Positions 6,615-46,561 of a stretch of DNA of 64,000 nt are shown in pieces. A model generated the notes under the pieces. It was not told where the DNA came from. It saw only the letters and a program-made list of their open reading frames with translations, and made no database searches. Every line of letters begins with the position of its first letter. The stretch's first letter is position 1. This DNA is from Bacteroidetes bacterium GWC2_46_850 (GTDB taxonomy: Bacteria; Bacteroidota; Bacteroidia; Bacteroidales; Dysgonomonadaceae), in assembly GCA_001768325.1 (NCBI GenBank), contig MENQ01000021.1, forward strand, positions 310,001 through 374,000, in the 5' to 3' direction. A program made the translations under genes and the position numbers.

Positions 6615-7718
6615 ATGGCTCTTCAATGTGGTATTGTGGGACTTCCCAACGTGGGAAAATCCACGCTTTTCAATTGTTTGTCGAATGCGAAAGCACAGGC
6701 GGCTAATTTTCCCTTTTGTACCATTGAACCGAATGTGGGTGTGATCACAGTGCCTGACGAAAGATTGAATAAGCTGGCAGAGCTTATTCATCCCCAAAAG
6801 ATCGTACCCACTACCGTGGAAATAGTGGATATTGCCGGCCTGGTGAAAGGTGCCAGCAAAGGGGAAGGACTTGGAAACAAGTTTCTGGCGAACATCCGGG
6901 AAACCGACGCCATATTGCACGTGTTGCGTTGTTTCGACGATGAGAACGTGACTCACGTGGATGGTCATATTGATCCGGTACGCGACAAAGAAATCATCGA
7001 TGCCGAGCTGCAGCTGAAAGATCTGGAGACAATCGAAGCCCGTATTGCCAAGGTGGAGAAGCAGGCCAAAACCGGGGGAGACAAAGAAGCCAAACTCGCC
7101 TTTGAAGTCTATTCAAAAATCCGTGAAGCGCTGTTACGCGGTGAATCGGCACGAACGGTCGCCTTTGATACCAAAGATGAAACAAAAGCAGCACAGGGAC
7201 TTTTTCTGCTTACTTCAAAACCGATCCTATATATATGCAACGTGGATGAAGCAAGTGCAAAGAATGGTAACCAGTATGTGGATGCAGTACGTGAGGCGGT
7301 AAAAAATGAAAATGCTCAAATACTGGTTGTCGCCGCAAAAATAGAATCAGAAATTGCAGAGTTTGATACCTACGAGGAGCGCCAAATGTTCCTGAATGAA
7401 ATTGGACTGGCAGAATCCGGCGTGAACAGGCTTATCAAATCTGCCTACCGACTGCTAAACCTCCAGACCTTTCTCACGGCCGGTGTGCAGGAGGTGCGGG
7501 CGTGGACTTTCCAGAAAGGATGGAAAGCCCCACAATGTGCCGGTGTGATTCATACCGATTTCGAGAAAGGATTTATCCGGGCTGAAGTGATAAAATACGA
7601 AGATTATATTGCCTATGGTTCTGAAAATTCCGTGAAAGAAGCGGGAAAAATGAGCGTGGAAGGCAAGGAGTATCTGGTGCAAGATGGCGATATCATGCAT
7701 TTCCGATTTAATGTGTAA
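6615..7718 (+). CDS. ychF: Redox-regulated ATPase YchF (OLA1 family)
   Basis: YchF is a ribosome-associated P-loop NTPase of the Obg group that prefers ATP. The 367-residue protein has the full domain set: G1 GLPNVGKST (residues 8-16), G3-like [17 protein letters not shown], a coiled-coil insertion (about 130-200) and a C-terminal TGS domain ending [13 protein letters not shown]. The family-typical end MHFRFNV is intact. The ATG at 6615 gives the canonical [16 protein letters not shown] start. It stands alone between nadA and the LacI regulator. Confidence 0.96.
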
Positions 7719-7808
7719 AAAAATTATACAAAAAGTTTTTACCCAAAATAATCATTTTTTCCCACTTTTTATAAAAATATGTTGTATAACATAGAGAAAT
7801 TTTTTTAA

Positions 7809-7820
7809 TTAATCGTTTAA
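7809..7820. promoter_or_regulatory. Candidate LacI-type operator upstream of its own regulator gene
   Basis: TTAATCGTTTAA differs by one base from the perfect palindrome found before fucI at 8944-8955. It has the central CG typical of LacI-family operators and lies 51 bp before the regulator ATG. A TTACTTTG -7-like element follows at 7826-7833. Autoregulation is inferred. Confidence 0.5.
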
Positions 7821-7870
7821 CCTGTTTACTTTGCATTAAAATCTGTTATTGGCATCAGATTTGTTTATAT

Positions 7871-8887
7871 ATGCAAAAGAGAGTATCACTGAAAACAATT
7901 GCCGATGAACTGAGTGTATCTTCCGCCACCGTTTCTCTGGTTTTGAACGGTAAGAACCAGAATGGAAGGGTAAGTAAGGAAATGTCTCAGAAGATATTGG
8001 ATAAGGCGGCTGAACTGAATTATATACCAAACAGTTTGGCAAAGGGTCTGAAAGTGGGCAAATCGCGTACGATAGGCTTAATCATCGCAGATATTTCCAA
8101 CCTTTTCTTTGGGGCATTAGCCCTGCATATACAAAATTTTGCCGAAGAAAAAGGATACACGGTGATTATTGGAAATACGAATGAGCAACTGGGCGAAATG
8201 GAAAAATTGATCAATTTTTTGTATGCCAGGCAAGTAGAAGGTCTGATTATCACTCCTACCGAAAAAAGCCAGATTCTGCTAAAAAAATTGTTTCATAATA
8301 AGATACCATTTGTCCTTGTGGATCGGACTTTTCCTGAGTTACCTGTCAATTCGGTACTGATTGACAATTATGAGATATCCTATCAAGCTACCCTGCAGCT
8401 GGTTAAAAGAGGTTGCAAGCGAATCGGGCTGGTTACCTATAAACAGGATCACTACCATATCAATGAACGCAGGCGTGGTTGTGAGGATGCATTAAAACAT
8501 ACCGGATTGTACAATCCGGATATCATGGAAGAGGTGCGGTATGATTTTCTGAAAAATGACATAAAAAGAGCTATTTTTAGCTTAATGTCAACGAAGGAAA
8601 GAATTGACGGCATCTTTTTCACAACCAATTCAATATCAATTAACGGAGTAAAGGAACTGATCAAAAATAATATCAACATTCAGAAGGATATCCAGATTAT
8701 GTGTTTCGATGAGAATGATGCTTTCTATATCCTTCCCTACACGGTACCTTTTATCAGACAACCCATCAAAGAGATGGCACAAAAAGCAGTTGACCTCTTG
8801 ATCGATCAGATTGAAATGAAAGATGAAGAAAACCAAAAAATTGTCATTTGTGCTGAGTTGGTATTAAGTGAAAATAGGATGTTTTAA
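7871..8887 (+). CDS. LacI-family transcriptional regulator
   Basis: This 338-residue regulator has an N-terminal LacI helix-turn-helix (VSLKTIADELSVSSATVSLVLNG, residues 5-27) and the hinge-helix region ending NYIPNSLAKGLKVGKS. A periplasmic-binding-protein-like sensor domain follows (TIGLIIADISNLFFGAL to the C-terminus). Such proteins bind palindromic operators and release, or are activated, on sugar binding. It directly precedes fucI and the GH172 locus, with near-identical palindromes in front of both genes, so it most likely controls this locus. The effector (a pentose, fucose or an oligosaccharide) cannot be read from the sequence. Confidence 0.93.
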   Translation: MQKRVSLKTIADELSVSSATVSLVLNGKNQNGRVSKEMSQKILDKAAELNYIPNSLAKGLKVGKSRTIGLIIADISNLFFGALALHIQNFAEEKGYTVIIGNTNEQLGEMEKLINFLYARQVEGLIITPTEKSQILLKKLFHNKIPFVLVDRTFPELPVNSVLIDNYEISYQATLQLVKRGCKRIGLVTYKQDHYHINERRRGCEDALKHTGLYNPDIMEEVRYDFLKNDIKRAIFSLMSTKERIDGIFFTTNSISINGVKELIKNNINIQKDIQIMCFDENDAFYILPYTVPFIRQPIKEMAQKAVDLLIDQIEMKDEENQKIVICAELVLSENRMF

Positions 8888-8943
8888 TTGATTGCTCTTT
8901 TTTTGTTACCATTAAAGGAGAAGACATGATATTTTCGATATAG

Positions 8944-8955
8944 TTAAACGTTTAA
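8944..8955. promoter_or_regulatory. Perfect palindromic operator before fucI
   Basis: TTAAACGTTTAA is a perfect 12-bp palindrome with a central CG, as expected for a LacI-family site. It lies 31 bp upstream of the fucI start in the 99-bp gap after the regulator gene. Confidence 0.6.
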
Positions 8956-8986
8956 TTAAAATTTATAACCTATTAAATTGTTTTGA

Positions 8987-10762
8987 ATGAAACAAGTGTA
9001 TCCTAAAATTGGCATCCGCCCCATTATCGACGGTCGTCGCGGAGGCATCAGGGAGTCGTTGGAAGAAACGACGATGAATCTTGCTTTAAGTGCAGCCAGG
9101 TTGTACAGCGAAAATCTCAGGTATCCCGATGGAACACCTGTTGAATGTGTGATTGCAGATACCTGCATTGGCGGAGTGAAAGAAGCGGCCCTATGTGCCG
9201 AAAAGTTTGAACGTGAAAACGTTGGCCTCTCGCTTTCGGTCACTCCTTGCTGGTGCTACGGATCAGAGACAATTGACATGAATCCTGTTATCCCAAAAGC
9301 AATATGGGGATTTAATGGTACAGAACGTCCCGGTGCTGTATATCTTTCAGCTGCTTTGGCAGTACATAACCAAAAAGGCCTACCTGCCTTCGGGATTTAT
9401 GGTAAAGATGTGCAGGATGTGGGAGATAATACCATACCGGAAGATGTACGGGAGAAGCTACTGCGTTTCGCAAAAGCGGGACTGGCTGTGGCGATCATGC
9501 GCGGAAAATCATATCTCTCCATTGGTTCCGTTTCGATGGGAATCGGGGGGTCCATGACAAATCCCGACTTCCTGCAGGAATATTTGGGTATGCGAACAGA
9601 ATTTGTGGATGCAACCGAAATATTGCGTCGTATTCAGCTTGGAATTTATGATCATGCAGAATTTGAGAAAGCGATGGCGTGGACCAAAGAAAAATGCATG
9701 AGCCGCGAAGGCGAAGATTATAATCCCGCCCATCTGAAGCATAATCGTGAACAGAAGGATAAAGACTGGGAATTCGTGGTGAAGATGACGCTGATCTTCC
9801 GTGATCTGATGATTGGGAATCAGGTACTTGATCGTATGAATTTTGGGGAAGAAGCACTGGGTCATAACGCCATTGCCGGTGGTTTCCAGGGTCAGCGACA
9901 GTGGACTGACTTTCTACCCGATGGTGATTTTTCAGAAGCAATTCTTAATTCTTCATTCGACTGGAACGGAATCCGCAAACCATTCACCTTTGCCACCGAA
10001 GACGATCACCTGAATGGAATCAGCATGCTGTTCAATCAGTTACTGACCAACAGATCCCAAATTTTTGCCGATGTGCGTACTTACTGGAGCCCTGAAGCCA
10101 TTGAAAGGGTCAGTGGATGGAAGCCCGAAGGCTTGTTGGAGCATGGAGCTATTTTCCTTAAAAACTCAGGCTCGTGCACCCTCGATGGTACCGGACAGCA
10201 ATCCGATACCAATGGAAATCCGGTGATGAAGCCTTTTTGGGAGATCAGGGAGGAAGAAGTGGACAAAATGCTGGAAGCTACAACCTGGTATCCCGCATCG
10301 CTGGAATACATGCGTGGGGGTGGCTACTCTTCCCAATTTCTGACCAAACCGGGCATACCGGTCACCATGAGCCGCATCAACCTGATCAAGGGTTTGGGGC
10401 CGGTATTGCAGATTGCAGAAGGTTGGACGGCTACCTTCCCCGACCATGTGTTCCGGTTGATTGACGGGCGTACCGACAAAACATGGCCCTCTACCTTCTT
10501 TGTGCCCCGCATAACAGGCAAAGGTCGTTTTACCGACGTCTATGAAGTAATGAACTATTGGGGTGCAAACCACGGAGCCATCAGCTATGGGCATATTGGC
10601 GCCGATCTGATTACGCTCGCATCGGCATTGTCAATTCCGGTAAATATGCACAATGTGGATGAGACGAAGATCTTCCGTCCCGATGCATGGTCTGCTTTCG
10701 GTTCCGATCACGAAGGATCCGACTATCGGGCTTGTGCCACCTACGGACCCCTGTATCGTTAA
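8987..10762 (+). CDS. fucI: L-fucose isomerase / D-arabinose isomerase
   Basis: This enzyme interconverts L-fucose with L-fuculose and, in known family members, D-arabinose with D-ribulose, using Mn2+ in the cytoplasm. The 591-residue length is normal. The three metal ligands of the E. coli enzyme (Glu337, Asp361, His528) correspond to Glu338 in [10 protein letters not shown], Asp362 in FADVRTYW and His529 in [11 protein letters not shown], each with the same +1 offset, so the active site is intact. The N-terminus [20 protein letters not shown] is canonical. It is the first enzyme gene after the LacI regulator. No fuculokinase or fuculose-phosphate aldolase accompanies it, which leaves the D-arabinose reading open. 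Confidence 0.96.
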
Positions 10763-10832
10763 ATTCAGAAGGAACGTTGCAACCGGATCTTCTGAAAAAG
10801 TATTTTATTGAACCGAATAAATACACAACATT

Positions 10833-12029
10833 ATGGAAAATGATCGTAATTTATTAAAAGTAAGCACACTCATGTTGGCTGTCTTACTGTGCATTCCACT
10901 GTTCTCTCAGACAGAATCAATGGGAGAAATGTTTGCACTGGCAAAAATGAAATCGGGTGTGAAGAACAGGAGGATTTCCAGTACCGACCCGACAGGAGGG
11001 AACAGGGATCACCTGGAGCCTTTCAAACCGGGTGAAAAGCGAACAATAGCTGAAATTAAAGGCACCGGGGTCATCAATCATATCTGGATAACCATTGCCC
11101 CACCACCGGATGAACTGAGCAGAAACGATATCATTATCCGGATGTACTGGGACGGAAATGACCATCCCTCTGTGGAGTCTCCCATTGGCCCTTTTTTTGG
11201 ACAGGGATGGGACGAACGTTACAATTATGCTGCTTTGCCGCTTTCTGCAGGACCCGAGAATGGTACGGGGATGAGCAGCTACTTTGCCATGCCTTTCGAG
11301 AAAGGAGCCCGAATAGAGATTGAAAATCAGACAGACAGAACGATTAATGCCTTCTATTTCTATGTCGATTATCTGGAGATGAATCAATTACCGAAAGATA
11401 TGGGTCGTTTCCATGCCTGGTATAATCATACGCTCTCCGAAGCCTTGCCTGAAGGTGAAACAGAATGGGCACTTACTGCTCCGCAGCAGCCCAACAAGAA
11501 AGGTGACAGAAACTATGCTTTTATCGATACCAAAGGGAAAGGCCATTTTGTGGGTATCAACTATTACATGCACTCGCCCACCCCGATGTGGTACGGCGAG
11601 GGTGACGACATGTGGTTTATCGACGGGGAGGAGCAGCCCCGGCTGATCGGTACCGGTACGGAAGATTTCTTCAACACCTCCTGGTGTCCGAAAGAACCCT
11701 TTTCACACCCTCATTTTGGTTATCCGCGGGTAAACAATGATATCGGCTGGCTGGGAAGAACGCACGTATACCGCTTTTTCATCAACGATCCCATATTCTT
11801 TGAGACATCCGTGAAAGGAACCATCGAGACCGGTCACAACAACAACCTGACTCTTGATCTCTCCACTGTGGCCTATTGGTATCAGGACAAAGCCGTGATG
11901 CTCCCTCCGGCACCCACCAAAGACCAGCGGAAGCCCAAACCTTTTATAAACCACATGGATATGCACCGCTGGCGTGATGCATGGCGAAAAACAAAAGGGA
12001 ATGATCCCCATCTATGGGGAAATGAGTAA
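10833..12029 (+). CDS. GH172 (DUF2961) glycoside hydrolase, secreted, copy 1
   Basis: This 398-residue protein carries a signal peptide (about residues 1-26, ending CIPLFSQ) and a single DUF2961 jelly-roll domain, the GH172 family. Known members include difructose-dianhydride I synthase/hydrolase and exo-D-arabinofuranosidases. The two family carboxylates are visible as Glu256 in WYGEGDDM and Glu277 in GTGTEDFF. Their 21-residue spacing matches that recalled for characterised members. GTGVINHIWIT and DGNDHPSVESPIGPFFG are further family blocks. It follows fucI by 70 bp, probably in one transcript. The substrate is not proven; a terminal alpha-linked furanoside is the best guess. Confidence 0.88.
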   Translation: MENDRNLLKVSTLMLAVLLCIPLFSQTESMGEMFALAKMKSGVKNRRISSTDPTGGNRDHLEPFKPGEKRTIAEIKGTGVINHIWITIAPPPDELSRNDIIIRMYWDGNDHPSVESPIGPFFGQGWDERYNYAALPLSAGPENGTGMSSYFAMPFEKGARIEIENQTDRTINAFYFYVDYLEMNQLPKDMGRFHAWYNHTLSEALPEGETEWALTAPQQPNKKGDRNYAFIDTKGKGHFVGINYYMHSPTPMWYGEGDDMWFIDGEEQPRLIGTGTEDFFNTSWCPKEPFSHPHFGYPRVNNDIGWLGRTHVYRFFINDPIFFETSVKGTIETGHNNNLTLDLSTVAYWYQDKAVMLPPAPTKDQRKPKPFINHMDMHRWRDAWRKTKGNDPHLWGNE

Positions 12030-12078
12030 AAAAATATTAAAAGTTACACATGAAAATTACTTAACAATGTAGAGAAAC

Positions 12079-12549
12079 ATGAAAAAAAGAAAATTGACGT
12101 TCCTGTTCCTGATGCTGTTGTGTATTGGAAACATTGGTTGGGCGATGGCAGACAATTTGGAAGTACTGCAATCGCAGCGAAAGATTACCGGTAGGGTTAT
12201 GGATGAACAAGGCGAATTGCTCATTGGTGTCAACGTGACAGAATCGGGGACAACAAACGGTACTGTGACCGACATCAATGGTACTTATTCGATTACGCTG
12301 ACTACATCTTCGCCGATGTTAAGATTCACCTACGTGGGGTTTAAAGAGCAAGAGGTAGCTGTCGGAAACCGGGGTATATTGGATGTAACCCTGGAGGAAG
12401 ACGTGGAGGCACTGGATGAAGTGGTGGTTGTGGGTTATGGTACCCAAAAGAAAGCTTCTGTGGTGGGTTCTATCACCAACGTGGAACCGTCGAGCCTTTC
12501 CATCACACCTACCCGATCGCTGAGTAACAATCTTGCCGGTATGGTATGA
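12079..12549 (+). pseudogene. SusC/RagA-type receptor, N-terminal remnant only
   Basis: The 156-residue frame starts as a normal SusC: signal peptide (MKKRKLTFLFLMLLCIGNIGWA), carboxypeptidase-regulatory domain (ITGRVMDEQGELLIGVNV) and the first part of the plug (VVVVGYGTQKKASVVGSI ... LSNNLAGMV). It then stops at TGA 12547-12549. Normal SusC proteins are about 1000 residues, so over 80 percent is missing. The next bases continue in another frame with the tail of an esterase gene, so the remnant marks a deletion that also removed any susD. The product could not form a barrel. An assembly chimera is the alternative explanation. Confidence 0.85.
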
Positions 12550-14009
12550 CCATGTATAATGCCATTGTGGATGCGGTGTGGAAAGCGAAAGAACTGGCCG
12601 GTATCGACATGGTCGTTCCCAGCGGAACCGCCATTCAAAACGGAAGAACATCTTACATTGGCGACAAGTTTACCCGCGACGGTTATCACCTGAATCTGAG
12701 CATCGGTCGTTTCACTGCCGCCAGCGCCTGGTTTGAATCCATCTTCGGGAACGTACTGAATAATACCTTTGTTCCCAATATGTTTTCAGAATATGACGCT
12801 TTGCTGGCGAAGACCGCCGCATCAGAAGCGGTAAAGACCCCTAAGTCGGTTACCCAGTTAACAGATTTCAAATATCCGGAACCGAATGAATTTGTCTTGA
12901 CCGCTCCCCTGTTTATCGATTTTGGAGGAGTGGAAAGCCCTGCTCCGTTTAATAATTTCAGGCATCCGAATGATCAGAAGATAGGGGGACTAATGGATGC
13001 AGCGGGGAATAACTCCAATTTTGCCATTGAGATTGCCCAAAGCTTTACAGGAACCTTGTCGAGAGGCTTACAAAATGTGCTGGGATTACCCAGATCGGCC
13101 TCTGAAGATATGTTTTTTAGTGATGGTAAGTTTGTGCCTCAGAGCGGGTTGACTCTGTCGAACCTGAACCGGGACCAAAAATACACCCTTGTATTCTATG
13201 GATCCATCAACGACAACAGAACAGAAACCGAGTTTCATGCCGTCGGCCAAAACGAAGGGATAGGATATCTTGACAATGACAACAATTTAGGAAAACTGGT
13301 TGTGATTAAGAATATCCAGCCTGCCGAAGATGCCACCATTTCTATCCGGATAAAACCAGGCCCCAACAACGAGCACTGGAATCTGTTCTTCGGAGTAAAT
13401 GTGTTGATGGTCTTGCCGGAGGGAATGCCCGTTCCGGTACAACCCAGCAGTTTCGAGCTGCTGCGTCCCGTTTACATAGATTTGGGGTTACGCTTGTCAG
13501 CAGCACCGTTCTATAATATTGAACGACCCAACAATGATCCCCACTTTGATCTTCCGGATGATTCAGGAACCAAAACAGGTATTGCGCTGAGTTTCACTGC
13601 TGCTTTTAACGGTGAAAATCAGTCCGGAGCCTTTACCAATACATTGGGTCTGCCCGGTGAGGTGACGGTTGATGCAATCTGGAGCGACAACGCCAACCAG
13701 AGAAGTGGACTTACGCTTTATAGGCTGAATCCGAACAAAAAGTATCAGTTTGTCTTCTTTGGCTCCAGAAACGGAGTGACTGACAACAGGGAGACGCGAT
13801 ACGAAGTAATCGGTTCAAATTCCGGAGAGGCTCTCCTCAATGCGTCGAACAACAATTCGAAGACAGTCGTCGTCAGCGGCATTCAACCAACAGTAGATGG
13901 AATCGTTGATATCAGGGTATCTGCCGGACCCAACAACAACAACGGAAGTAAATTTTATTATCTTAACTCATTGTTTATTGCGCCCGACGGATATAACTTT
14001 GCGCAATAA
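12546..14009 (+). pseudogene. C-terminal part of a DUF4886/SGNH-type esterase with two repeated beta-sandwich domains, N-terminus deleted
   Basis: The frame opens inside an SGNH-hydrolase domain: MYNAIVDAVWKAKE, VVPSGTAIQNGR and the Asp-His block DGYHLN are the C-terminal motifs of DUF4886-like acyl esterases. The nucleophile block (GDS-like) and any signal peptide are absent. Two copies of a domain of about 170 residues follow (starting FIDFGGVESPAPFNNF and YIDLGLRLSAAPFYNI). Each carries SGLTLxxLNxxxKYxxVFxGS and ends in a GPNN...N motif. The first in-frame ATG overlaps the SusC-remnant stop (ATGA), which is probably accidental. If translated it would be cytoplasmic and non-catalytic. Confidence 0.75.
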
Positions 14010-14023
14010 AATAGTGGATGCAC

Positions 14024-14060
14024 AAAATACAAGTTCCCGTAAGGGGACTTGTATTTTATT
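14024..14060 (+). terminator. Intrinsic terminator after the truncated esterase gene
   Basis: An 11-bp stem (AAAATACAAGT 14024-14034 with ACTTGTATTTT 14046-14056), extended by an inner CCC/GGG pairing, is followed by a short T-rich stretch. It lies 15 bp after the stop codon and may reduce read-through into the second GH172 gene. Confidence 0.75.
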
Positions 14061-14096
14061 GAGAATGAGATACAAAAATATTTATAATACACCACG

Positions 14097-15269
14097 ATGA
14101 TAAAGCAATTGAAATCAAAAATCTTCACGGTACTCATTTTAATTTTTACCGTGACTTCGTTTGCGCAGAACCGTTCTTTCAACGGCCTCGACATGAACAT
14201 GGGAAATTTGTATCGTCTCTCCGATGCAGAGACAAGATCAATTAGTCCCGAAAATTTTACCGGTGAAAAAGGAAAAGGGGGAATAGCCGTGCCCGATTCG
14301 AAGGCACCACGCAACACGGCCAATGCAACAAATGCAGCACGCGATCTGGGGCAAGGATGGAAGGTGAACCCTTATGTGCGCATTGAACCGGGTGAAACCT
14401 TCACCATGGCAGAAATAGAAGGGCCCGGTGCCATCCAGCATATCTGGATGACCCCCACGGGGAACTGGCGCTTCTCCATCATCCGCATATATTGGGATGA
14501 TGAAAAAGAACCCTCCGTGGAAGTGCCGGTCGGCCACTTTTTCGGTATGGGTTGGAACGAATATGCACACCTGAATTCACTTCCCGTTACGGTGAACCCC
14601 GGGAGTGCTTTTAACTGTTACTGGGTGATGCCCTTCCGCAAAAAGGCAAGGATTACCATGACCAACATCAACGACGCAGATGCAATGAATCTCTACTATC
14701 AGATCGACTATACACTGACCGATGTGCCGGATGATGCTGCCTATTTTCATGCTCAGTTTCGCCGGACGAAAGTGAACAAGACGTCCGATTATACCCTTGT
14801 AGACGGTATCAGGGGTGAGGGGCAGTATGTGGGCGTATACATGGCCTGGCAGGTAAATAACAATGGCTGGTGGGGCGAAGGTGAAATTAAGTTTTTCATG
14901 GACGGCGATAAACAGTTCCCGACAATCATCGGTACCGGTACGGAAGATTATTTCTGCGGTTCCTATAACTTTGACCGTAATGGAAAATACGTTACTTTTA
15001 CCACCCCATATGCCGGACTGGTGCAGGTTCTTCCAGCCGATCAAACCTATAAAGCGGGACAACGGTTTGGTCTTTACCGCTGGCATGTGATGGATCCGAT
15101 CCGTTTTAAGAAGGATCTGAAGATCACCATCCAGGATCTCGGCTGGCGTCATGGCGGCCGCTACCTGCCCCAACAATCTGATATCTCATCCGCGGTATTC
15201 TGGTATCAGACCGAGCCACACGCCAGTTTCCCTGCTTTATCGCAGTGGGAAGAACTGGAAATGAACTAA
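14097..15269 (+). CDS. GH172 (DUF2961) glycoside hydrolase, secreted, copy 2
   Basis: This 390-residue protein has a signal peptide (MIKQLKSKIFTVLILIFTVTSFAQ) and one GH172 domain. Candidate catalytic glutamates are Glu261 in WWGEGEIKFF and Glu283 in GTGTEDYF, 22 residues apart. Family blocks GPGAIQHIWMTPTG and DDEKEPSVEVPVGHFFG are present. It is distinctly diverged from the first copy and lacks extra domains, so the copies are paralogues rather than recent duplicates and may act on different linkages of one substrate. It is separated from upstream genes by a terminator and precedes the third GH172 gene by 16 bp. Confidence 0.88.
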   Translation: MIKQLKSKIFTVLILIFTVTSFAQNRSFNGLDMNMGNLYRLSDAETRSISPENFTGEKGKGGIAVPDSKAPRNTANATNAARDLGQGWKVNPYVRIEPGETFTMAEIEGPGAIQHIWMTPTGNWRFSIIRIYWDDEKEPSVEVPVGHFFGMGWNEYAHLNSLPVTVNPGSAFNCYWVMPFRKKARITMTNINDADAMNLYYQIDYTLTDVPDDAAYFHAQFRRTKVNKTSDYTLVDGIRGEGQYVGVYMAWQVNNNGWWGEGEIKFFMDGDKQFPTIIGTGTEDYFCGSYNFDRNGKYVTFTTPYAGLVQVLPADQTYKAGQRFGLYRWHVMDPIRFKKDLKITIQDLGWRHGGRYLPQQSDISSAVFWYQTEPHASFPALSQWEELEMN

Positions 15270-15285
15270 TGAAAAATCAAAAGCA

Positions 15286-17226
15286 ATGGGAAGAATTTCA
15301 ATCAGAATTTTAGGGATCACACTGTTATTTTTTGTCTTTTTTCAGGCACAGAGTCAAAACAAAACCTACCGTTGGGCCGATGAGGTACAACAGTTGTACC
15401 GCGTGGACCAATTGCCCCGATACAGGCACGGCCAGTTCATTGAACAAGAGTCGAGCTACGACAGGACAGGCGGTAACGACGATGGATTCTCGGGAAAATA
15501 CTCCTATATCCGGAAGGAGAATGGAAGCCTGGTGCTGGCTGAGTTTGAAGGTCCGGGTGTGGTGAACCGGATATGGACCCCCACCCCCACAGAAGACACG
15601 CTGCTGTTCTTTTTCGACGGAGAAAAAACGGCCCGCCTGAAAATCAAGTTTATAGATCTTTTCTCGGGCAAGGTGTTTCCTTTCGTCAAACCGGTTTGTG
15701 GTAATGAGATTGGTGGTTACTACTGCTACATCCCCATCCCCTTTCAGAAATCGCTGAAGATCGTGTTTCAGGGTGAGAAGATCATGTTTCACCAGATACA
15801 GTACCGTAAACTTACGGGTATGGACGTGGAGAGCTGGACCGGAAACTTTTCCGCATCAGACAAGCAGTTGTTGTCAGAGGTAACTGCACTCTGGAGTAAC
15901 ATCTCACCCACCATCGGCCAATACACGACCGGTTCCTCAGATAAAATCCGTACAGAAGAAAAAACATTTACAATTCAACCGGGAGAGGAAGTGGCTTTTT
16001 TTGAAAAGAATGCCGGTGGCCGCATTGTCGGTTTCGATATTGATGGCGGGACTTCATTTGAAGATCTGTATAAAGATATCATCCTTTCAGCCAAATGGGA
16101 CAATGAGCCGGTAGCGGCAATTTATGCCCCCCTCGCCGATTACTTTGGATACGCCTATGGAAAGCCTGCGATGCGCAGCATCCTGATGGGCAGATATGGA
16201 ACCACCCATTACAGTTACCTGCCGATGCCCTATGACCGGTCGGCCGAAATGAAACTGATCTACAAAAAAAGGGAAGGAGCCCGGCAGAATCAAATTTCTG
16301 TGACTGCGAAAGTCTATTTCAACGACAATCCTCGTGATAAAAAGGAGGAGGGAAAGCTCTACACCGTATGGAGGCGTGAAAAGCCCGAAACAGGGCAGTT
16401 TTATACTTTTCTGCAAACAAAGGGTAAAGGTCACTACGTGGGCACCATCCACAGCGCCCAAGGACTCCGCCCCGGTATGACGCTCTTCTTTGAAGGTGAC
16501 GATTCCACCTATGTGGATGGAAAGATGCGGATGCACGGCACCGGCTCGGAGGATTATTACAACGGCGGCTGGTATGCCCTGCTTGATCGCTGGGATCGTG
16601 GCATCAGCATGCCAATCCATGGCTCCCTCGATTACTCCCTCCCGATGAATCGTACAGGCGCATACCGCTTTTTCCTCTCCGACAAACTATCTTTCGAAAA
16701 TGAGATCTATCACGCCATGGAACATGGAGAGGTAGGAAACAATTTCCCCGTGGACTACACCTCTGTGGCTTTCTATTATGCCGATCGACCGTTGGAAAAA
16801 CGGATGGAGCCAACAGAAGCATTGCGGGAAGTATACCTGCCATCCAAACATGTCTATTTTCCCCAGTTGATGGAGATTACCCTGGAGAAAGGAATTCAGG
16901 TGATCTTCGACAGAGGGCTTGCGCTCACCTCTTTTGGAAAAGGTGCCGTGAGGGTGATGCTGCGTGATGTTCCGGAGGGTAAATACAGGGTACTGCTTAA
17001 TTATCACGAGAGTCCAAAAGGTGCCGACTTCCAGATATGGCAGCGTCAGAAGCAACTATCAGACTGGATATCCACAAAGGCAGGAAAGGACGGGTACAGG
17101 GAGAATGTACATGTGGGAGATATACAACTCACTTCCCAGACAAACTCCATCACGGTGCATGTCAGAGACAATGGGAAAGCCAATCTCTTCGAACTCACAC
17201 TGATCACGCTTGAACGGATTGAGTAA
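15286..17226 (+). CDS. GH172-like (DUF2961) protein with extra central and C-terminal domains, copy 3
   Basis: At 646 residues this is much longer than the other two GH172 proteins. After a signal peptide (ending FFQAQSQ) come the GH172 blocks GPGVVNRIWTPTPTED and, after an insert from about residue 180 to 390, Glu403 in FFEGDDSTYVDG and Glu422 in GTGSEDYYNGGWY. Their spacing of 19 residues is shorter than in copies 1 and 2. A C-terminal beta-sandwich of about 100 residues (MEITLEKGIQVIFDRG to the end) may bind carbohydrate. The duplicated arrangement suggests a two-jelly-roll subfamily, where activity or linkage preference may differ. It is operonic with copy 2. Confidence 0.82.
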   Translation: MGRISIRILGITLLFFVFFQAQSQNKTYRWADEVQQLYRVDQLPRYRHGQFIEQESSYDRTGGNDDGFSGKYSYIRKENGSLVLAEFEGPGVVNRIWTPTPTEDTLLFFFDGEKTARLKIKFIDLFSGKVFPFVKPVCGNEIGGYYCYIPIPFQKSLKIVFQGEKIMFHQIQYRKLTGMDVESWTGNFSASDKQLLSEVTALWSNISPTIGQYTTGSSDKIRTEEKTFTIQPGEEVAFFEKNAGGRIVGFDIDGGTSFEDLYKDIILSAKWDNEPVAAIYAPLADYFGYAYGKPAMRSILMGRYGTTHYSYLPMPYDRSAEMKLIYKKREGARQNQISVTAKVYFNDNPRDKKEEGKLYTVWRREKPETGQFYTFLQTKGKGHYVGTIHSAQGLRPGMTLFFEGDDSTYVDGKMRMHGTGSEDYYNGGWYALLDRWDRGISMPIHGSLDYSLPMNRTGAYRFFLSDKLSFENEIYHAMEHGEVGNNFPVDYTSVAFYYADRPLEKRMEPTEALREVYLPSKHVYFPQLMEITLEKGIQVIFDRGLALTSFGKGAVRVMLRDVPEGKYRVLLNYHESPKGADFQIWQRQKQLSDWISTKAGKDGYRENVHVGDIQLTSQTNSITVHVRDNGKANLFELTLITLERIE

Positions 17227-17232
17227 ATTGAT

Positions 17233-17264
17233 GTGATGATTGGATGATGTGGTGATTGGATGAT
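17233..17264 (+). repeat. Two tandem 16-bp repeats abutting a start codon
   Basis: GTGATGATTGGATGAT (17233-17248) is followed directly by GTGGTGATTGGATGAT (17249-17264), differing at one base. The ATG of the next gene starts at 17265, so the repeat forms its whole leader. Confidence 0.7.
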
Positions 17265-19367
17265 ATGGAAAAAAAGCTGATTAAAAGTGTATTGTTTTTA
17301 TACATTGTCTTCTCTTCCCTGTTACAGGCCCATGAGCCGGGGAGAGGGAATCAGACTTCATCGGTCGTGGTGAAGCTACCTCATTCATTCGAGAATGAGA
17401 TAGGGAAAATTCAGTATGACCTGCTCGGAAATGAAAAGGGAACCTGCAGGATTGAGGTTTTGAGCGACAGTTGCCTGCATGTGAAGATCAGTTTTAAGCT
17501 TGATGAGCAGTTGAGGCAGGACGACTGGCAGCTAACCCTTCATCCCGGTTTTACGCCCTCATTTCACTGGTCGCCACATCTCACCCCCACCCCGCGTCAC
17601 GTCATCGATCAACACGTATTCCGCTCTCCTGCCCTCATCGTCTCTGATGAACAACAGATGCTGGCGTTGATACCCGATCTCGATATAATGGGCTTGGGAA
17701 CACCGGTGAGATGGTACCTAGATATGGATGCACAGCAAAACCGGCTGATCCTCGGAATGGGCAACAGCAGCGTGGATGACCATGTGCTGTTTCGTCATGA
17801 ACCCGGGGCGGTATATCCCGCCGGTGAGGTGGAAATCGGTTTTTATCTGCTTCGCTCCAGTGAAGTTGAGACAATCGGAAATCCTTTCCGAAAACCGCTT
17901 GAGTTTATGTGGAGCCGTTGGGGAGGACCGCTGTACAAAAACGGCAATCCCCTGGATGGTTTATTGAAACCTTATGTGGAACATACGTACCACTGGGCAT
18001 TCAACAGCTGGTCAGATGCTGTCTGGCAGGAGTTCACGCTTCACGGCACGAAGGTAGGTGCTCCAACCTTTATTGTCAATGTCACACAGAGTCCCAACTA
18101 TCCGGGTGAGGTGAACGAGCGGGAGTTCCGCTCCGTCTGGAACCAGGCGTGGTTCAGTTCCCTGCGCTCAGCAAGCGGACTCTATCGTTATGCGAGGCGT
18201 ACCGGAAATGATCGTTTAATGGAAAAAGCCTTGCTGACCAAAGAACTGGCATTGTGTTTTCCACAGCGGGATGGTTTTTTCTACGGCCTTATTGGTACGG
18301 AAATGGAAGAAGTAGAGAGAGAGGGAAAAAAATATAGCAAGAGCAAAGGATGGGAAACCCGTTTCTGGGGAAATTCCAACAGGAATCCGTACACCTGGAA
18401 TCCGCGCGAATCCCCTTTTCATGTTCTCGATATGAGCTGGACCGCCCTGCTGATGCTGAGATGGTATGAAGAACTGGAAAAGGATGAACGTTTGTTGCAG
18501 TATGCGCAGGCTTACGGTGAGTCGTTGTTACAACTTCAGTCGGTGAACGGTTTTTTCCCCGCTTGGCTCAATCTGCAGACGCTTGAACCCTTGCCTCACC
18601 TCGACGAATCTCCGGAGACTTCCATGTCGGCCACTTTCCTGTTGAAATTGTATGAACTGACCGGAAAAGAGGCTTACAAAAAAGCCGCACTCAAGGCCAT
18701 AGATGCCGTGATCGCCGAAATTATTCCTTCGGGGAGATGGGAGGATTTTGAGACCTATTGGTCCTGTTCCCGTTACGGATCGGAAGATTTGGTGGGAAAA
18801 AAGGAGGTGAGAAACAACATGCACAAGCAGAATAATTTTTCCATGTTCTGGACTGCGGAAGCACTGCTTGAGGGTTTCAGAATGACCGGTGAAAAACGTT
18901 ACCTCGAGTATGGACAACGCACACTCGACGAATTGCTGATGACACAGGCTTCGTGGCAGCCACCCTATATTTACGTGCACGTGCTGGGCGGCTTCGGCGT
19001 GATGAATGCCGACGGAGAGTGGAACGATGCACGGCAGAGCCTCTTTGCGGAACTGATTCTCCGATATGGGCAGCTGCTTGGGATTCAGGAGTACCGTGAA
19101 CGGGGTGTGGCCGCCCTGAAAGCCTCCTTTGTGATGATGTACGCACCCGAAAACCCGGTCACGCGGAGGCAGTGGGAAAAGGTTTATCCTTTTTTTGGCT
19201 CCGCAGATTATGGATTCACCATGGAGAACTACGGACACGGTGGACACACAAGTCCCGGGGGTGAGGGAATGGGTGAGTTTACGATCTACGACTGGGGAAA
19301 CGGCGCGGCCGCCGAAGCATACAACCGCATCCTGGATCATTTTTCGGAAATGGAGGAAATCAGATAA
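17265..19367 (+). CDS. Secreted protein with N-terminal beta-domain and (alpha/alpha) toroid, family not recognised
   Basis: This protein has about 700 residues. ATG 17265 is preferred to the in-frame TTG at 17256 because MEKKLIKSVLFLYIVFSSLL is a clean signal peptide. Residues about 30-270 look like a beta-sandwich. Residues about 290-690 are rich in paired helices typical of the six-hairpin glycosidase fold (LRSASGLYRYARRTGN, YAQAYGESLLQLQSVNG, SMSATFLLKLYELTG, TAEALLEGFRMTGEKRYLEYG), with acidic and aromatic residues in loops (DFETYWSC, NMHKQNNFSMFW, GEWNDARQS). It could be a glycoside hydrolase or lyase of the same locus. I cannot assign a CAZy family. It follows the GH172 genes by 38 bp. 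Confidence 0.7.
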   Translation: MEKKLIKSVLFLYIVFSSLLQAHEPGRGNQTSSVVVKLPHSFENEIGKIQYDLLGNEKGTCRIEVLSDSCLHVKISFKLDEQLRQDDWQLTLHPGFTPSFHWSPHLTPTPRHVIDQHVFRSPALIVSDEQQMLALIPDLDIMGLGTPVRWYLDMDAQQNRLILGMGNSSVDDHVLFRHEPGAVYPAGEVEIGFYLLRSSEVETIGNPFRKPLEFMWSRWGGPLYKNGNPLDGLLKPYVEHTYHWAFNSWSDAVWQEFTLHGTKVGAPTFIVNVTQSPNYPGEVNEREFRSVWNQAWFSSLRSASGLYRYARRTGNDRLMEKALLTKELALCFPQRDGFFYGLIGTEMEEVEREGKKYSKSKGWETRFWGNSNRNPYTWNPRESPFHVLDMSWTALLMLRWYEELEKDERLLQYAQAYGESLLQLQSVNGFFPAWLNLQTLEPLPHLDESPETSMSATFLLKLYELTGKEAYKKAALKAIDAVIAEIIPSGRWEDFETYWSCSRYGSEDLVGKKEVRNNMHKQNNFSMFWTAEALLEGFRMTGEKRYLEYGQRTLDELLMTQASWQPPYIYVHVLGGFGVMNADGEWNDARQSLFAELILRYGQLLGIQEYRERGVAALKASFVMMYAPENPVTRRQWEKVYPFFGSADYGFTMENYGHGGHTSPGGEGMGEFTIYDWGNGAAAEAYNRILDHFSEMEEIR

Positions 19368-19447
19368 GGGAAATGAACGCGACAGACGGATATATTTTCT
19401 GGCTTTAAATTAGAAAAAGAACTGGATGAAAAATAATATTTAATCAC

Positions 19448-20704
19448 ATGATGAAACGAAATCAATTCAAAGGAATCGTCGCCGCCATGCTAATCGGGGG
19501 AGCTTTTACGCTTTCCTGCAGCGGTAACAGAAAAACATCGGAATCTATGGAAGAGAACTACGAAAAAGGAACATTCGGGTACGACCTGAACTATCTTTCC
19601 GAAAAAGACAGCCTGATCGTGCTGAAATCGGATGACGAAAAAGCACAGGTCATTCTTTCGGCCAAATACCAGGCCAAGGTGTTTACATCTACAGCCAACG
19701 GTCTGGAAGGAAAGAGTCACGGGTTTGTAAATTATAACTTCTTTGATGCCGGCATCGTGGATGAACACATGAACGGCTTTGGCGGAGAAAACCGTTTGTG
19801 GCTGGGTCCTGAAGGAGGAAAATATTCCATCTTTTTTGAACCCGGAAAAGAACAGGTGTATGACAACTGGCACACACCCAAAGGAATTGACATTGCAGCA
19901 TGGGAAGTGAAAGATGTCACCACAAAGCGCGCCAAATTTATCAAAGAAATGGAATTGCAGAATTACCTGGGCCATAACCTGCTTGTTGCTGTGGAACGCA
20001 CCGTGTCGCTCATCGCCGACAGTGAAATTGCCACTTCATTGGGTGTTGTCATGCCAAAAAACGTACACGCCGTGGCTTACGCAACCGAGAACAGGATTAC
20101 CAATCGAAATGATTACGAATGGAGCCCGGAGACCGGTACAGTCTGTATCTGGATGCTTGACATGTTTATGCCCTCCGACTCGGCGGTGACGGTTATCCCA
20201 TACCACACCGGTGATGAAAGCGATCTGGGGCGGGTGGTTACTTCCGATTATTTCGGTGAGATACCCTCCGACCGGCTAATCGACGAAAACGGGATTCTTT
20301 ATTTTAAAACGGATGGCAAGTCAAGAGGAAAACTGGGCATGAATGCAAAACGGACAACCACCCTCGCCGGAAATTATGATCCTATCTCACAACGACTGAC
20401 CATTGTCACCTTCAATGCAGATCCGGACGCGATCTATCTGAATCAGGAGTGGAATCCGGAAAAGAATCCCCTGACAGGAGATGCGCTCAATGCGTACAAC
20501 GACGGACCGCTGGAGGACGGAAGTATCATGGGTCCCTTTCTGGAACTGGAAAGCAGCTCGCCTGCTGCCTTTCTGAAACCGGGTGAATCACGCTCACACC
20601 AGCACAACGTCTATCATTTCGTGGGAAATGAAGCCGACCTCTCCCCCATCGCAGAAGAATTATTGGGTGTGGACCTCGGCAAAGCAAAAAATATTTTTAA
20701 TTAG
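19448..20704 (+). CDS. DUF6786-like lipoprotein
   Basis: This 418-residue protein has a lipoprotein signal (MLIGGAFTLSCSG) placing it at the membrane, probably facing the periplasm or surface. The body is beta-rich with conserved-looking blocks FGYDLNYLSEKDSLIVLKS, VILSAKYQAKVFTSTA, NGFGGENRLWLGPEGG and EPGESRSHQHN-like residues near the C-terminus (KPGESRSHQHNVYHF). From memory this resembles DUF6786, a Bacteroidetes family without a known reaction; the fold hints at a galactose-mutarotase or glycosidase-like beta-sandwich, which is only an impression. It sits between the toroid protein and the sugar symporter and ends 18 bp before the latter, so the two are probably co-expressed. Confidence 0.7.
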   Translation: MMKRNQFKGIVAAMLIGGAFTLSCSGNRKTSESMEENYEKGTFGYDLNYLSEKDSLIVLKSDDEKAQVILSAKYQAKVFTSTANGLEGKSHGFVNYNFFDAGIVDEHMNGFGGENRLWLGPEGGKYSIFFEPGKEQVYDNWHTPKGIDIAAWEVKDVTTKRAKFIKEMELQNYLGHNLLVAVERTVSLIADSEIATSLGVVMPKNVHAVAYATENRITNRNDYEWSPETGTVCIWMLDMFMPSDSAVTVIPYHTGDESDLGRVVTSDYFGEIPSDRLIDENGILYFKTDGKSRGKLGMNAKRTTTLAGNYDPISQRLTIVTFNADPDAIYLNQEWNPEKNPLTGDALNAYNDGPLEDGSIMGPFLELESSSPAAFLKPGESRSHQHNVYHFVGNEADLSPIAEELLGVDLGKAKNIFN

Positions 20705-20722
20705 TACCGACAACTGAAGTAT

Positions 20723-22198
20723 ATGAATTCAAACGTAGTAAAACACCGTCTGGTCCCTGCCGGGATTGTATTTCCTTTTTTTCTGCTCACAGCCCTGTTT
20801 TTTATCTGGGCTGTGCCCAATAACATGACAGACACCATGCTGGCGGCATTCAAACGCATCATGAGCCTCTCAGATACGCAGACTGCCTGGATACAGGTTG
20901 TCTGCTATTTATTGGGTTATGGCTTTTTCGCACTGCCCGGTGCCATCTTTATCAAAAAACATACCTACAAATCGGGGGTGTTGCTCGGCCTGGGCCTGTG
21001 CATATCCGGTACCCTGCTCTTCTATCCTGCCATGTTGGCAAACAGCGTGAGCTCACCGCTGAGTTTTGCTACCTATCTGTTTGCAATCTTTGTGCTGTTT
21101 GCGGGACTGTCGGTTCTTGAAACATCGGCAAACGCCTATGTGTATTCACTGGGTGATCCGGTTACCGCAACCCGGCGCCTCAATTTTTCCCAATCCTTCA
21201 ACCCTTTTGGTGCCCTTACCGGGGTTTTGGTGAGCCAGATTTTCGTGCTGTCACAACTCAATACCATGACCGCTTCACAGAGAGAGGCACTGAGTGCTTC
21301 GGAGCTGGTTTCCATACAAAACGGGGAGCTGAATGCAGTGACCACAGCCTATATGATTCTGGGATTCGTGATGCTGGTGTTGTTCCTCCTGATTTTTTTT
21401 ACCACAATGCCCAAAGCACAGGATGAAGACAAGAGCCTCAATCTGAAAGCCACCTGGGGGCGGTTGAAGAAGAACAAAAATTACGTGTGGGGGGTGATTG
21501 CCCAGTTTTTCTATGTGGGTGCACAGATTGCGGTCTGGTCGTTTATCATCCGCTACGCGATGCAGCAGCTCGATTTCGACACGGTCATCGCACGTCTGGG
21601 TGATAATCCATCTCAGGAAGCAATCATTGGTGCGTTGCGCGGCGTGGAACCCCTGGCGGGAGGCTTTTATTCTGTGAGTGAATTTCTGGGGTTGAATGAA
21701 TTGCTGCCCCGTACGTCTGAACAGGCCGGGGCAACCTATTATATTCTTTCGCTGGTATTGTTTGTATTGGGGCGTTTTATTTCTACCTGGCTGATGAAAT
21801 ATACCCGACCGGTCAATATCCTTTCGGGTCTGGGTATTCTGGCCGTGATCTGCTCCATTTTGACCATCTACGGAGAAGGATTTGCGGGTATTTATGCGCT
21901 GATGGGAATTTCAGGTTGCATGTCGGCCATGTTTCCCACCATCTACGGATTGGGAATGAGGGGACTGGGAGAGGATACCAAAATCGCCGGCTCCGGTATG
22001 GTCATGGCCATCGCGGGGGCGGCACTGCTCACGCAGTTGCAGGGCATACTCTCTGACCAGGCCGGGAGCATTAAATTTGCTTATTGGGTTCCGGCTATCG
22101 CGTTTATGATCATTACTTTGTATAGTTTTACCGTCGCACGGAGCAAAAAGCTGGGCAATGGAAATTTTTTATCCGGCCACGTTGGTCTTGATGCCTGA
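20723..22198 (+). CDS. FucP-type sugar:H+ symporter (FHS family MFS)
   Basis: This 491-residue inner-membrane MFS protein has about 12 predicted helices. The two residues essential for proton coupling and sugar binding in E. coli FucP are conserved: Asp37 in PNNMTDTML (Asp46 in FucP) and Glu133 in GLSVLETSANAYV (Glu135). FucP accepts L-fucose and also D-arabinose, which fits its place at the end of a locus with fucI. A long central loop with an extra segment (about residues 225-330) is wider than in E. coli. The gene ends tail-to-tail inside the radical SAM gene, overlapping it by 30 bp. Confidence 0.88.
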   Translation: MNSNVVKHRLVPAGIVFPFFLLTALFFIWAVPNNMTDTMLAAFKRIMSLSDTQTAWIQVVCYLLGYGFFALPGAIFIKKHTYKSGVLLGLGLCISGTLLFYPAMLANSVSSPLSFATYLFAIFVLFAGLSVLETSANAYVYSLGDPVTATRRLNFSQSFNPFGALTGVLVSQIFVLSQLNTMTASQREALSASELVSIQNGELNAVTTAYMILGFVMLVLFLLIFFTTMPKAQDEDKSLNLKATWGRLKKNKNYVWGVIAQFFYVGAQIAVWSFIIRYAMQQLDFDTVIARLGDNPSQEAIIGALRGVEPLAGGFYSVSEFLGLNELLPRTSEQAGATYYILSLVLFVLGRFISTWLMKYTRPVNILSGLGILAVICSILTIYGEGFAGIYALMGISGCMSAMFPTIYGLGMRGLGEDTKIAGSGMVMAIAGAALLTQLQGILSDQAGSIKFAYWVPAIAFMIITLYSFTVARSKKLGNGNFLSGHVGLDA

Positions 22199-43643: not shown

Positions 43644-44702
43644 TTAAAACTTCAATTGCACGTATTTGATTTTTTCGCGATTGTAGGTATAGGTAACATG
43701 TACTGTTCCCTTTTTATCCTGTAATATGGCAGGGTAACTGAATTCACCCGAGGTGTGATCCTCTAAGTCAATTAGTTTTTCCCATGTTTTCCCATCATAT
43801 GACCCGGCTATTGCCAGTTTATTTCTACCCGAAGTGATTGGATTGTAAATGATCAGTTGTAGACCATTGGATAAGGTTACCGCATCGGTACCCGAATTGT
43901 TGTTGGGTAAATCTGTAGGCAAGAGTTTGGACCATGTTTTGCCATTGTCGTGCGACCAGGATTCCACTACCCTTTCATTTTTCGATCGACAGAGAATTTG
44001 CAGGGCACCCCCCTCATGAAACAATACGGAAGGCTGAATTGCATCAAAACCGTTGTTGTCGATCTCAATTTTTTTCCAGTCGGTCAGCTCCTGATTCGAC
44101 ATCTCCATGTAGACATTCCATTTACCGACAATCTCGATGCTTGTGGGGTAAAGTATTTTGCCACCGGGTATGATGACCGGTTTGTTTTTGACCGGCCCCA
44201 GGCATCCACGTGGAATCATTTCACGGACAGTCCAGGTCTCACCCTCATCGTTGGATACCTTATACTCTCCCCACCAGGTACTGGGACTGGGTCCCACCTT
44301 ATAGTAAAGAATCAGGTCGCCATTTTCCCGCTTAAACAACACAGGGTTCCAGCAGGGAAATCTCTGCGATTCATTCTGCACACCATCTGCAACCATGACC
44401 GGATCGCTCCACCGGCCCTCTTTAAATCTGGAGGTATAAATACTCACATTGGGGTGCCGTTCGTAGGTACCTCCAAACCATGCCACAAGTAAGCCATTGT
44501 CTGTCTCCACAATGGTGGAGGCGTGTGCCGATGGCACCGAAACAGGGCCCTTGATTATTTCAGCATGAACCACGATGGGGTTGATGGAACGTAATCTCTC
44601 CCTATCCGATTCTCCCTTACCTGCGTTACCGGCAGAGATACCACTGGAAAAAAGCATCAACAGGCAGCATAACAAGTTGATGTTGTTATTTTTCAAAGCC
44701 AT
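43644..44702 (-). CDS. BNR/Asp-box beta-propeller protein (sialidase-like)
   Basis: This 352-residue secreted protein (signal peptide ending SSGISAGNA) has the six-bladed sialidase-superfamily propeller with Asp-boxes SNDEGETWT, SHDNGKTWS and SYDGKTWE. AWFGGTYERHPNVSIYTSRF resembles the BNR_2 group. The FRIP/YRIP motif of classical GH33 sialidases is not found: the matching region reads VPSAHASTI, and a catalytic triad cannot be assigned by eye. It may therefore cleave another sugar, such as a uronic acid or rhamnose, rather than sialic acid. It overlaps the TIM-barrel/AlkP gene by 17 bp. Confidence 0.82.
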   Translation of the reverse strand: MALKNNNINLLCCLLMLFSSGISAGNAGKGESDRERLRSINPIVVHAEIIKGPVSVPSAHASTIVETDNGLLVAWFGGTYERHPNVSIYTSRFKEGRWSDPVMVADGVQNESQRFPCWNPVLFKRENGDLILYYKVGPSPSTWWGEYKVSNDEGETWTVREMIPRGCLGPVKNKPVIIPGGKILYPTSIEIVGKWNVYMEMSNQELTDWKKIEIDNNGFDAIQPSVLFHEGGALQILCRSKNERVVESWSHDNGKTWSKLLPTDLPNNNSGTDAVTLSNGLQLIIYNPITSGRNKLAIAGSYDGKTWEKLIDLEDHTSGEFSYPAILQDKKGTVHVTYTYNREKIKYVQLKF

Positions 44703-46557: not shown

Positions 46558-46561
46558 ACGA

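Follow-up and report, generated by a model that had tools for sequence, protein, structure and literature searches.

Which sugar is served by an operon that joins a FucI-type isomerase and a FucP-like symporter to three unlike proteins of glycoside hydrolase family 172 (GH172), and how much of a polymer-degrading pathway does its genome still hold? The question is raised by a 64,000-nucleotide stretch of Bacteroidetes bacterium GWC2_46_850 (Dysgonomonadaceae; contig MENQ01000021.1, positions 310,001 to 374,000), referred to here as the window. An earlier interpretation made from the letters alone (the sequence-only reading) had proposed that this locus degrades D-arabinan or a related furanoside rather than fucosides. 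We analyzed the window, the whole genome (3.75 Mb in 32 contigs, with a completeness score of 100% and 0.16% contamination) and related genomes (designated G with a number). Gene-level comparison makes it likely that this is a LacI-controlled operon of the same type as PUL42, a polysaccharide utilization locus (PUL) of Dysgonomonas gadei, serving D-arabinose bound in α-D-arabinofuranosides, which has been cut down by two deletions and would now be used to scavenge fragments.

Sugar served by the operon

The genes found on the + strand between 7871 and 22198 were, in order, LacI, FucI, GH172, a SusC piece, a DUF4886 piece, GH172, a larger GH172, a toroid protein, a DUF6786 protein and FucP (Table 1). 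All genes named in the sequence-only reading were present on that strand; the truncated SusC and DUF4886 frames had been overlooked. The DUF2961/GH172 profile scores of the three GH172 proteins were 270, 319 and 175 bits (gathering score 27), and motif and alignment located both family glutamates, described before, at E256/E277, E261/E283 and E403/E422. A DUF2961 search of the whole genome gave four matches, all within these three frames, and no GH172 outside them.

The GH172 tree comprised 65 rows, namely four solved references and frames longer than 250 amino acids (aa) from a selection of the fetched loci. Each of the three locus proteins fell, with support, into a group of its own that also held one GH172 of genome G025, a genome with a protein 98% identical to 8AH3 (DgGH172c). 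The first group contained ExoMA1 (8IC8), the nearest solved relative of the protein at 14097, and the 'a' protein of G025 (support 100/99). The second contained the 'b' protein of G025 (99/98), and the third contained DgGH172c, BACUNI_00161 (4KQ7) and the 'c' protein (100/97); the locus proteins are called GH172a, GH172b and GH172c below. The fructan-acting αFFase1 (7V1V) stood outside all three groups; it entered the tree only in pieces, and the program flagged long branches, 8IC8 and 7V1V among them. Tree placement had been proposed along with the sequence-only reading as a check on it and, under these long-branch warnings, no clustering with 7V1V was seen.

FucI passed two NCBIfam equivalogs (1046 and 1025 bits), and its E338, D362 and H529 aligned with E337, D361 and H528 of E. 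coli 1FUI, which we take to be the metal ligands. FucP scored 389 bits against TIGR00885, and its D37 and E133 aligned with D46 and E135 of 3O7Q, presumably the key acids by role; the ligands and acids were as intact as had been claimed. Two FucI proteins were matched in the genome at 1e-100. The locus FucI grouped with 13 others (support 96/96), made up of those from D-arabinan-type loci and of two further copies in G009 and G025, whereas the FucI of contig C16 grouped with second copies from seven other genomes (99/97) and sits in a GntR-FucI-FucU-FucP row, a separate fucose operon. A third Fucose_iso_C match (40.5 bits) lay in a 498-aa frame. Compared with E. coli FucP, the locus symporter is longer by about 50 residues around positions 284-333, and its counterpart in the C16 fucose operon has a length of only 441 aa.

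The candidate LacI operator in front of fucI is an exact palindrome, TTAAACGTTTAA, found at two places in the genome and at none in the control; the second copy lies inside a sugar-transferase gene unrelated to the locus. The form GTTAAACGTTTAAY precedes 13 of 38 distinct FucI upstream stretches. When two mismatches were allowed, the pattern occurred 13 times in the window against 11.7 in shuffles, without enrichment. A fucosidase/fuculokinase operon under the same operator elsewhere in the genome had been named as evidence that would speak against a D-arabinose locus. There is indeed a separate fucose operon, but no copy of the exact operator was found in it.

The assignment to D-arabinose appears well supported, since each GH172 groups with a different PUL42-type GH172 and FucI belongs to a clade apart from the fucose-operon FucI. 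Together with the near-unique exact operator of fucI, these trees bear out the earlier preference for a D-arabinose-type furanoside over fucosides. That the operon serves L-fucose or an α-fructan instead seems very improbable to us. Such use would fit the names FucI and FucP, the genome's eight GH29 matches (five on C16) and the action of αFFase1, of the same GH family, on α-D-fructofuranosides as stated in a passage of PMC8605356. L-fucose was set aside in view of the second FucI-FucU-FucP operon on C16, and fructan in view of the position of 7V1V. Three FGGY kinases exceeded the Pfam cut-off, and not one of them passed the fuculokinase cut-off (a fourth match, below the Pfam cut-off, stayed outside that scan). 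As reported before, a scan of the locus proteins with Pfam/NCBIfam profiles showed no fuculokinase, fuculose aldolase or fucosidase.

Several points weigh against an operon devoted to D-arabinose. The GH172 tree has long branches, and with eight GH29 matches in the genome the FucI and FucP of the locus could serve L-fucose too. A passage of PMC10509167 terms DgGH172c highly similar to the α-fructofuranosidase αFFase1, which calls for caution against firm assignment from sequence. Parts of PMC10115798 describe the role of the Bacteroides GH172 as unclear, with α-fructans possibly included, and DgGH172b as weak. FucI was present in the fetched flanks of 34 of 79 GH172c loci, or 19 of 41 when only loci of at least 21 kb were counted; many genomes carry GH172c without a nearby FucI, and GH172c alone is a poor marker.

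Two deletions and what they leave

Of SusC, 156 codons remain from the start of the gene; at 12546 they continue, out of frame, into the rear part of the DUF4886 protein, and the SusC frame ends at the joint. A search of 39 genomes of the genus with a 171-base query spanning 12547 gave matches in three besides the own genome. In the sister genomes G071 and G076, the query halves were 93-97% identical and lay 5.39 kb apart, with 2 query bases shared, and the space between them is occupied by complete SusC and SusD frames and by the beginning of DUF4886; in G078 one half of the query was matched, at 76%. At the second joint, which lies between FucP and a radical S-adenosylmethionine (radical-SAM) gene, this genome lacks the 1.6 kb ribulokinase gene of G071, and its FucP has acquired a new tail. 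A whole SusC/SusD pair was not found in the locus, SusC being truncated and SusD absent.

The ratio of nonsynonymous to synonymous substitution rates (dN/dS) of the SusC piece against the two sisters was 0.08 and 0.14, and that of the DUF4886 piece 0.08 and 0.09; between the sisters, the whole SusC and DUF4886 genes gave 0.04 and 0.09. The remnants thus lack a clear sign of decay, and the first deletion is probably young. Open frames and a recent-looking event, together with the loss of SusC, SusD, DUF4886 and the kinase in two deletions, would also be expected of a dying D-arabinan PUL, the rest of which is no longer under selection and will decay. We hold this course of events to be unlikely, though the least so of the alternatives, because LacI, FucI, the three GH172s, the toroid protein, DUF6786 and FucP are intact and the core is kept in the loci of relatives that are free of SusC/SusD (4/19) or of the kinase (2/19).

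The evidence at the joints is assembled sequence only, and the contigs of the sisters themselves break inside GH172c; an artefact of assembly or of strain mixture, with the operon in fact whole, keeps some weight against the deletion of these genes. It is nevertheless improbable. The sequence common to both sides of the first joint is just 2 bp long, which would be too little for the usual repeat-driven misjoin, the assembly is scored complete with little contamination, and a search of the assembly for the missing SusC/SusD stretch with a 4.5 kb sister piece gave only six matches of 34-104 bases.

Loss of GH183 and GH116 from this genome's own locus was also considered and dropped, as the mapped loci of G071 and G098 contain neither. 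Therefore, only the losses of SusC/SusD/DUF4886 and of ribulokinase are specific to this genome. GH183 (DUF4185), the endo-D-arabinanase family, had no match in the whole genome. For GH116, the exo-β-D-arabinofuranosidase family, none was found over the cut-off in the genome, the one sub-threshold match (22.7 vs 26.3 bits) lying in another gene. These absences argue against an attack on intact D-arabinan. As for the earlier statement that the locus degrades D-arabinan, the type of sugar stood, whereas degradation of the polymer was too strong a claim for a locus with truncated SusC and DUF4886 and with neither SusD, GH183, GH116 over the cut-off nor an operon kinase.

Given the cut in SusC, SusD and DUF4886 and a search for GH183 that found none, the bacterium is probably a scavenger of fragments that others set free, or else it is starting to lose the pathway. 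Judged from the gene set, the genes still present could serve to free D-arabinose from small α-D-arabinofuranosides and to use it; no own route of polymer attack or import was seen. By analogy with relatives tested elsewhere, the exported GH172s would clip terminal α-D-arabinofuranose from short oligosaccharides outside the inner membrane. DUF6786, to judge by its fold, may convert the freed sugar from one ring form or anomer to another, FucP would import D-arabinose, and FucI would convert it to D-ribulose. An araBAD operon is present on another contig (C1); AraB is loose towards pentuloses and may take over the kinase step by phosphorylating D-ribulose.

In comparison with G071, DNA identity changes across the operon, being about 75-80% for ychF, FucI and GH172c (window 7000-12000) and 91-96% for SusC, GH172a and FucP (12079-22160). 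This step hints at an exchange of part of the operon between lineages.

Relatives, accessory proteins and neighbouring genes

Among 101 genomes of the family searched, 30 (the own genome included) had a GH172c-like match at 1e-60. Twenty-five relatives were mapped, of which 19 span GH172c to FucP; the remaining six either reach a contig end (G076, G103, G054) or carry GH172c without the surrounding operon (G016, G053, G027). The flanks were as in the window, with ychF before and the radical-SAM gene after, in 8 of the 19 spanned relatives, whereas ychF alone (4/19), the radical-SAM gene alone (2/19) or neither in the stretch read (5/19) was seen in the others. G066, G069 and G078 have a different regulator and a PUL downstream of the operon.

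GH183 was present in 11 and GH116 in 10 of the 19. Four loci contain no SusC/SusD (G072, G086, G095, G115), that of G086 being also without FucI; ribulokinase is absent from two (G089, G090) and a fragment in one (G095). A SusC2-SusD2-DUF4886 module without GH183 and GH116 occurs in G071 and G098, and the remnants in the own genome are of the same type. G076 has one contig with SusC'-SusD'-GH116 after GH172c and another with the SusC2 module after a GH172c end, that is, two copies or two strains. Across Dysgonomonadaceae, the operon combines a core with modules for import and endo-enzymes that can be exchanged, and it often occupies the same chromosomal slot. A 393-aa protein without a Pfam/NCBIfam match (L107:163-1344) adjoins GH116 in several of the fuller operons.

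Starts resembling signal peptides were seen by eye in the three GH172s and the toroid protein, and a lipobox-like start in DUF6786. The toroid protein had no Pfam match over the cut-off. Its structure model, of low confidence (mean predicted local distance difference test score, pLDDT, 70), combines a β-sandwich with an α/α (α-helical) barrel. Fold matches were to polysaccharide lyase, GH116, GH52, GH76 and sugar epimerases, with low template modelling (TM) scores over the whole query (best match, a polysaccharide lyase, TM 0.24/0.25). The toroid protein as a stand-in for GH116 was considered and rejected, as the 19 spanned relatives carry both (9), the toroid protein alone (6), GH116 alone (1) or neither (3).

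The DUF6786 protein scored 511 bits against its profile and was modelled (pLDDT 88) with a galactose-mutarotase-like fold (best match 3k25, E 2.6e-11, TM 0.48/0.67), which suggests a possible role in converting the sugar, once free, between its forms. The DUF6786 frame of G071 is shortened to 341 aa (L185 3625-4647), with about 115 bases missing relative to the window, and the dN/dS against it (0.31) was set aside for that reason. A search of open-licence literature by title and start of abstract returned nothing with the word DUF6786. A bolder proposal is a recurrent import-free 'cheater' core of FucI, GH172, DUF6786 and FucP living on the D-arabinofuranosides of neighbours, with the toroid protein as a new GH family and DUF6786 as an exported D-arabinose mutarotase; we offer it as speculation with rather little chance of being right.

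Table 1. Coordinates of the operon features in the window
Feature	Position	Strand	Evidence
Candidate LacI operator TTAATCGTTTAA before lacI	7809..7820		Exact match to TTAAWCGWTTAA
LacI-family regulator	7871..8887	+	Profile matches
Candidate LacI operator TTAAACGTTTAA before fucI	8944..8955		Genome search
FucI, D-arabinan-locus paralogue, proposed D-arabinose isomerase	8987..10762	+	Profile match, alignment, tree
GH172, relative of DgGH172c (8AH3) and BACUNI_00161 (4KQ7)	10833..12029	+	Profile match, tree
SusC remnant, first 156 residues then stop	12079..12549	+	Profile match, sister comparison
Deletion joint where two sister genomes hold a further 5.39 kb; 2 bp shared	12546..12549		Sister comparison
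DUF4886 protein remnant without front part (487 residues)	12546..14009	+	Profile match, sister comparison
GH172, relative of ExoMA1 (8IC8) and of the 'a' enzyme of D. gadei-like G025	14097..15269	+	Profile match, tree
Large GH172, relative of the 'b' enzyme of D. gadei-like G025; one whole and one partial DUF2961 match	15286..17226	+	Profile match, tree
Toroid protein	17265..19367	+	Frame opens with TTG at 17256, ATG at 17265; structure model
DUF6786 protein, lipobox-like start by eye, mutarotase-like fold	19448..20704	+	Profile match, structure model
FucP-like symporter; C-terminal tail altered at second deletion	20723..22198	+	Profile match, alignment
Second deletion joint; sister G071 has the 1.6 kb ribulokinase gene here	22164..22170		Sister comparison

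A second PUL occupies 42350-63220 of the window on the - strand, with SusC/SusD at 59795-63220 and 58124-59779, two purple-acid-phosphatase-like proteins, PhoPQ-related, YdjC and BNR proteins, a major facilitator superfamily transporter and an oxidoreductase. Its gene content suggests a phosphorylated glycan as the substrate. At 44686-46689 (- strand), a 667-aa frame fuses a sugar-isomerase/epimerase-like TIM barrel (AP_endonuc_2) to an alkaline phosphatase domain, an unusual pairing, and two further - strand proteins of this PUL, of 781 aa (47972-50317) and 726 aa (55912-58092), had no Pfam match at 1e-3.

Comparison with known D-arabinan systems

The gene order in G025 is LacI, FucP-like, GH172a, GH116, DUF6786, toroid, GH172b, FucI, followed by SusC1, SusD1, DUF4945, SusC2, SusD2, DUF4886, GH172c, GH183, GH183 and ribulokinase. 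The parts of PMC10115798 and PMC10509167 that deal with the D. gadei locus give the numbers 02467, 02468, 02471, 02479, 02480 and 02481, and PMC10509167, which names 02468, gives GH116 as the exo-β-D-arabinofuranosidase family. The spacing in G025 fits these numbers, so G025 is presumably D. gadei or a close relative.

In the comparison with the D. gadei PUL42 (PMC10115798) that the sequence-only reading had suggested, FucI and several GH172s lie in one locus, and the three GH172 groups are shared; the whole SusC/SusD pair, GH183 and GH116 over the cut-off were not found. As in PUL42, DUF6786 and toroid proteins accompany them. The SusC2/DUF4886 module, in this genome only as remnants, and LacI and FucP-like genes have counterparts in G025. 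Unlike PUL42, the own locus lacks GH183, GH116, SusC1/SusD1/DUF4945, ribulokinase and whole SusC/SusD, and its LacI and FucP share only 39% and 27% identity with those of G025.

Petrimonas sp. IBARAKI and Proteiniphilum acetatigenes share the order LacI-FucI-GH172c ... GH172a-GH172b-toroid-DUF6786-FucP with nadA/ychF upstream, but they keep SusC1-SusD1-DUF4945-GH183, the 393-aa protein, GH116 and ribulokinase. Sister G071 has an operon of the SusC2-SusD2-DUF4886 type, no GH183/GH116 in the mapped contigs and most locus proteins 87-98% identical at the protein level; it differs in its whole SusC, SusD, DUF4886 and ribulokinase. No report on a D-arabinan locus in Proteiniphilum or on SusC/SusD-free forms was met in the same title and abstract search of open-licence literature.

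D-arabinan is a mycobacterial cell-wall scaffold, and its recycling by communities is little known. The natural deletion form described here sets the capture of the polymer apart from use of the monomer, and it allows cross-feeding on D-arabinan to be tested in harmless bacteria. The Microbacterium arabinogalactanolyticum cluster, as outlined in part of PMC10509167, likewise combines a GH172 exo-α enzyme, ExoMA1, with an isomerase and a kinase step, but it differs in ATP-binding cassette import, exo-enzymes without a signal sequence and the presence of GH183 and GH116. This kind of system is already known, and what the present locus and its relatives add is the mapped slot, two middle modules, a recurring import-free form and the natural deletion found here.

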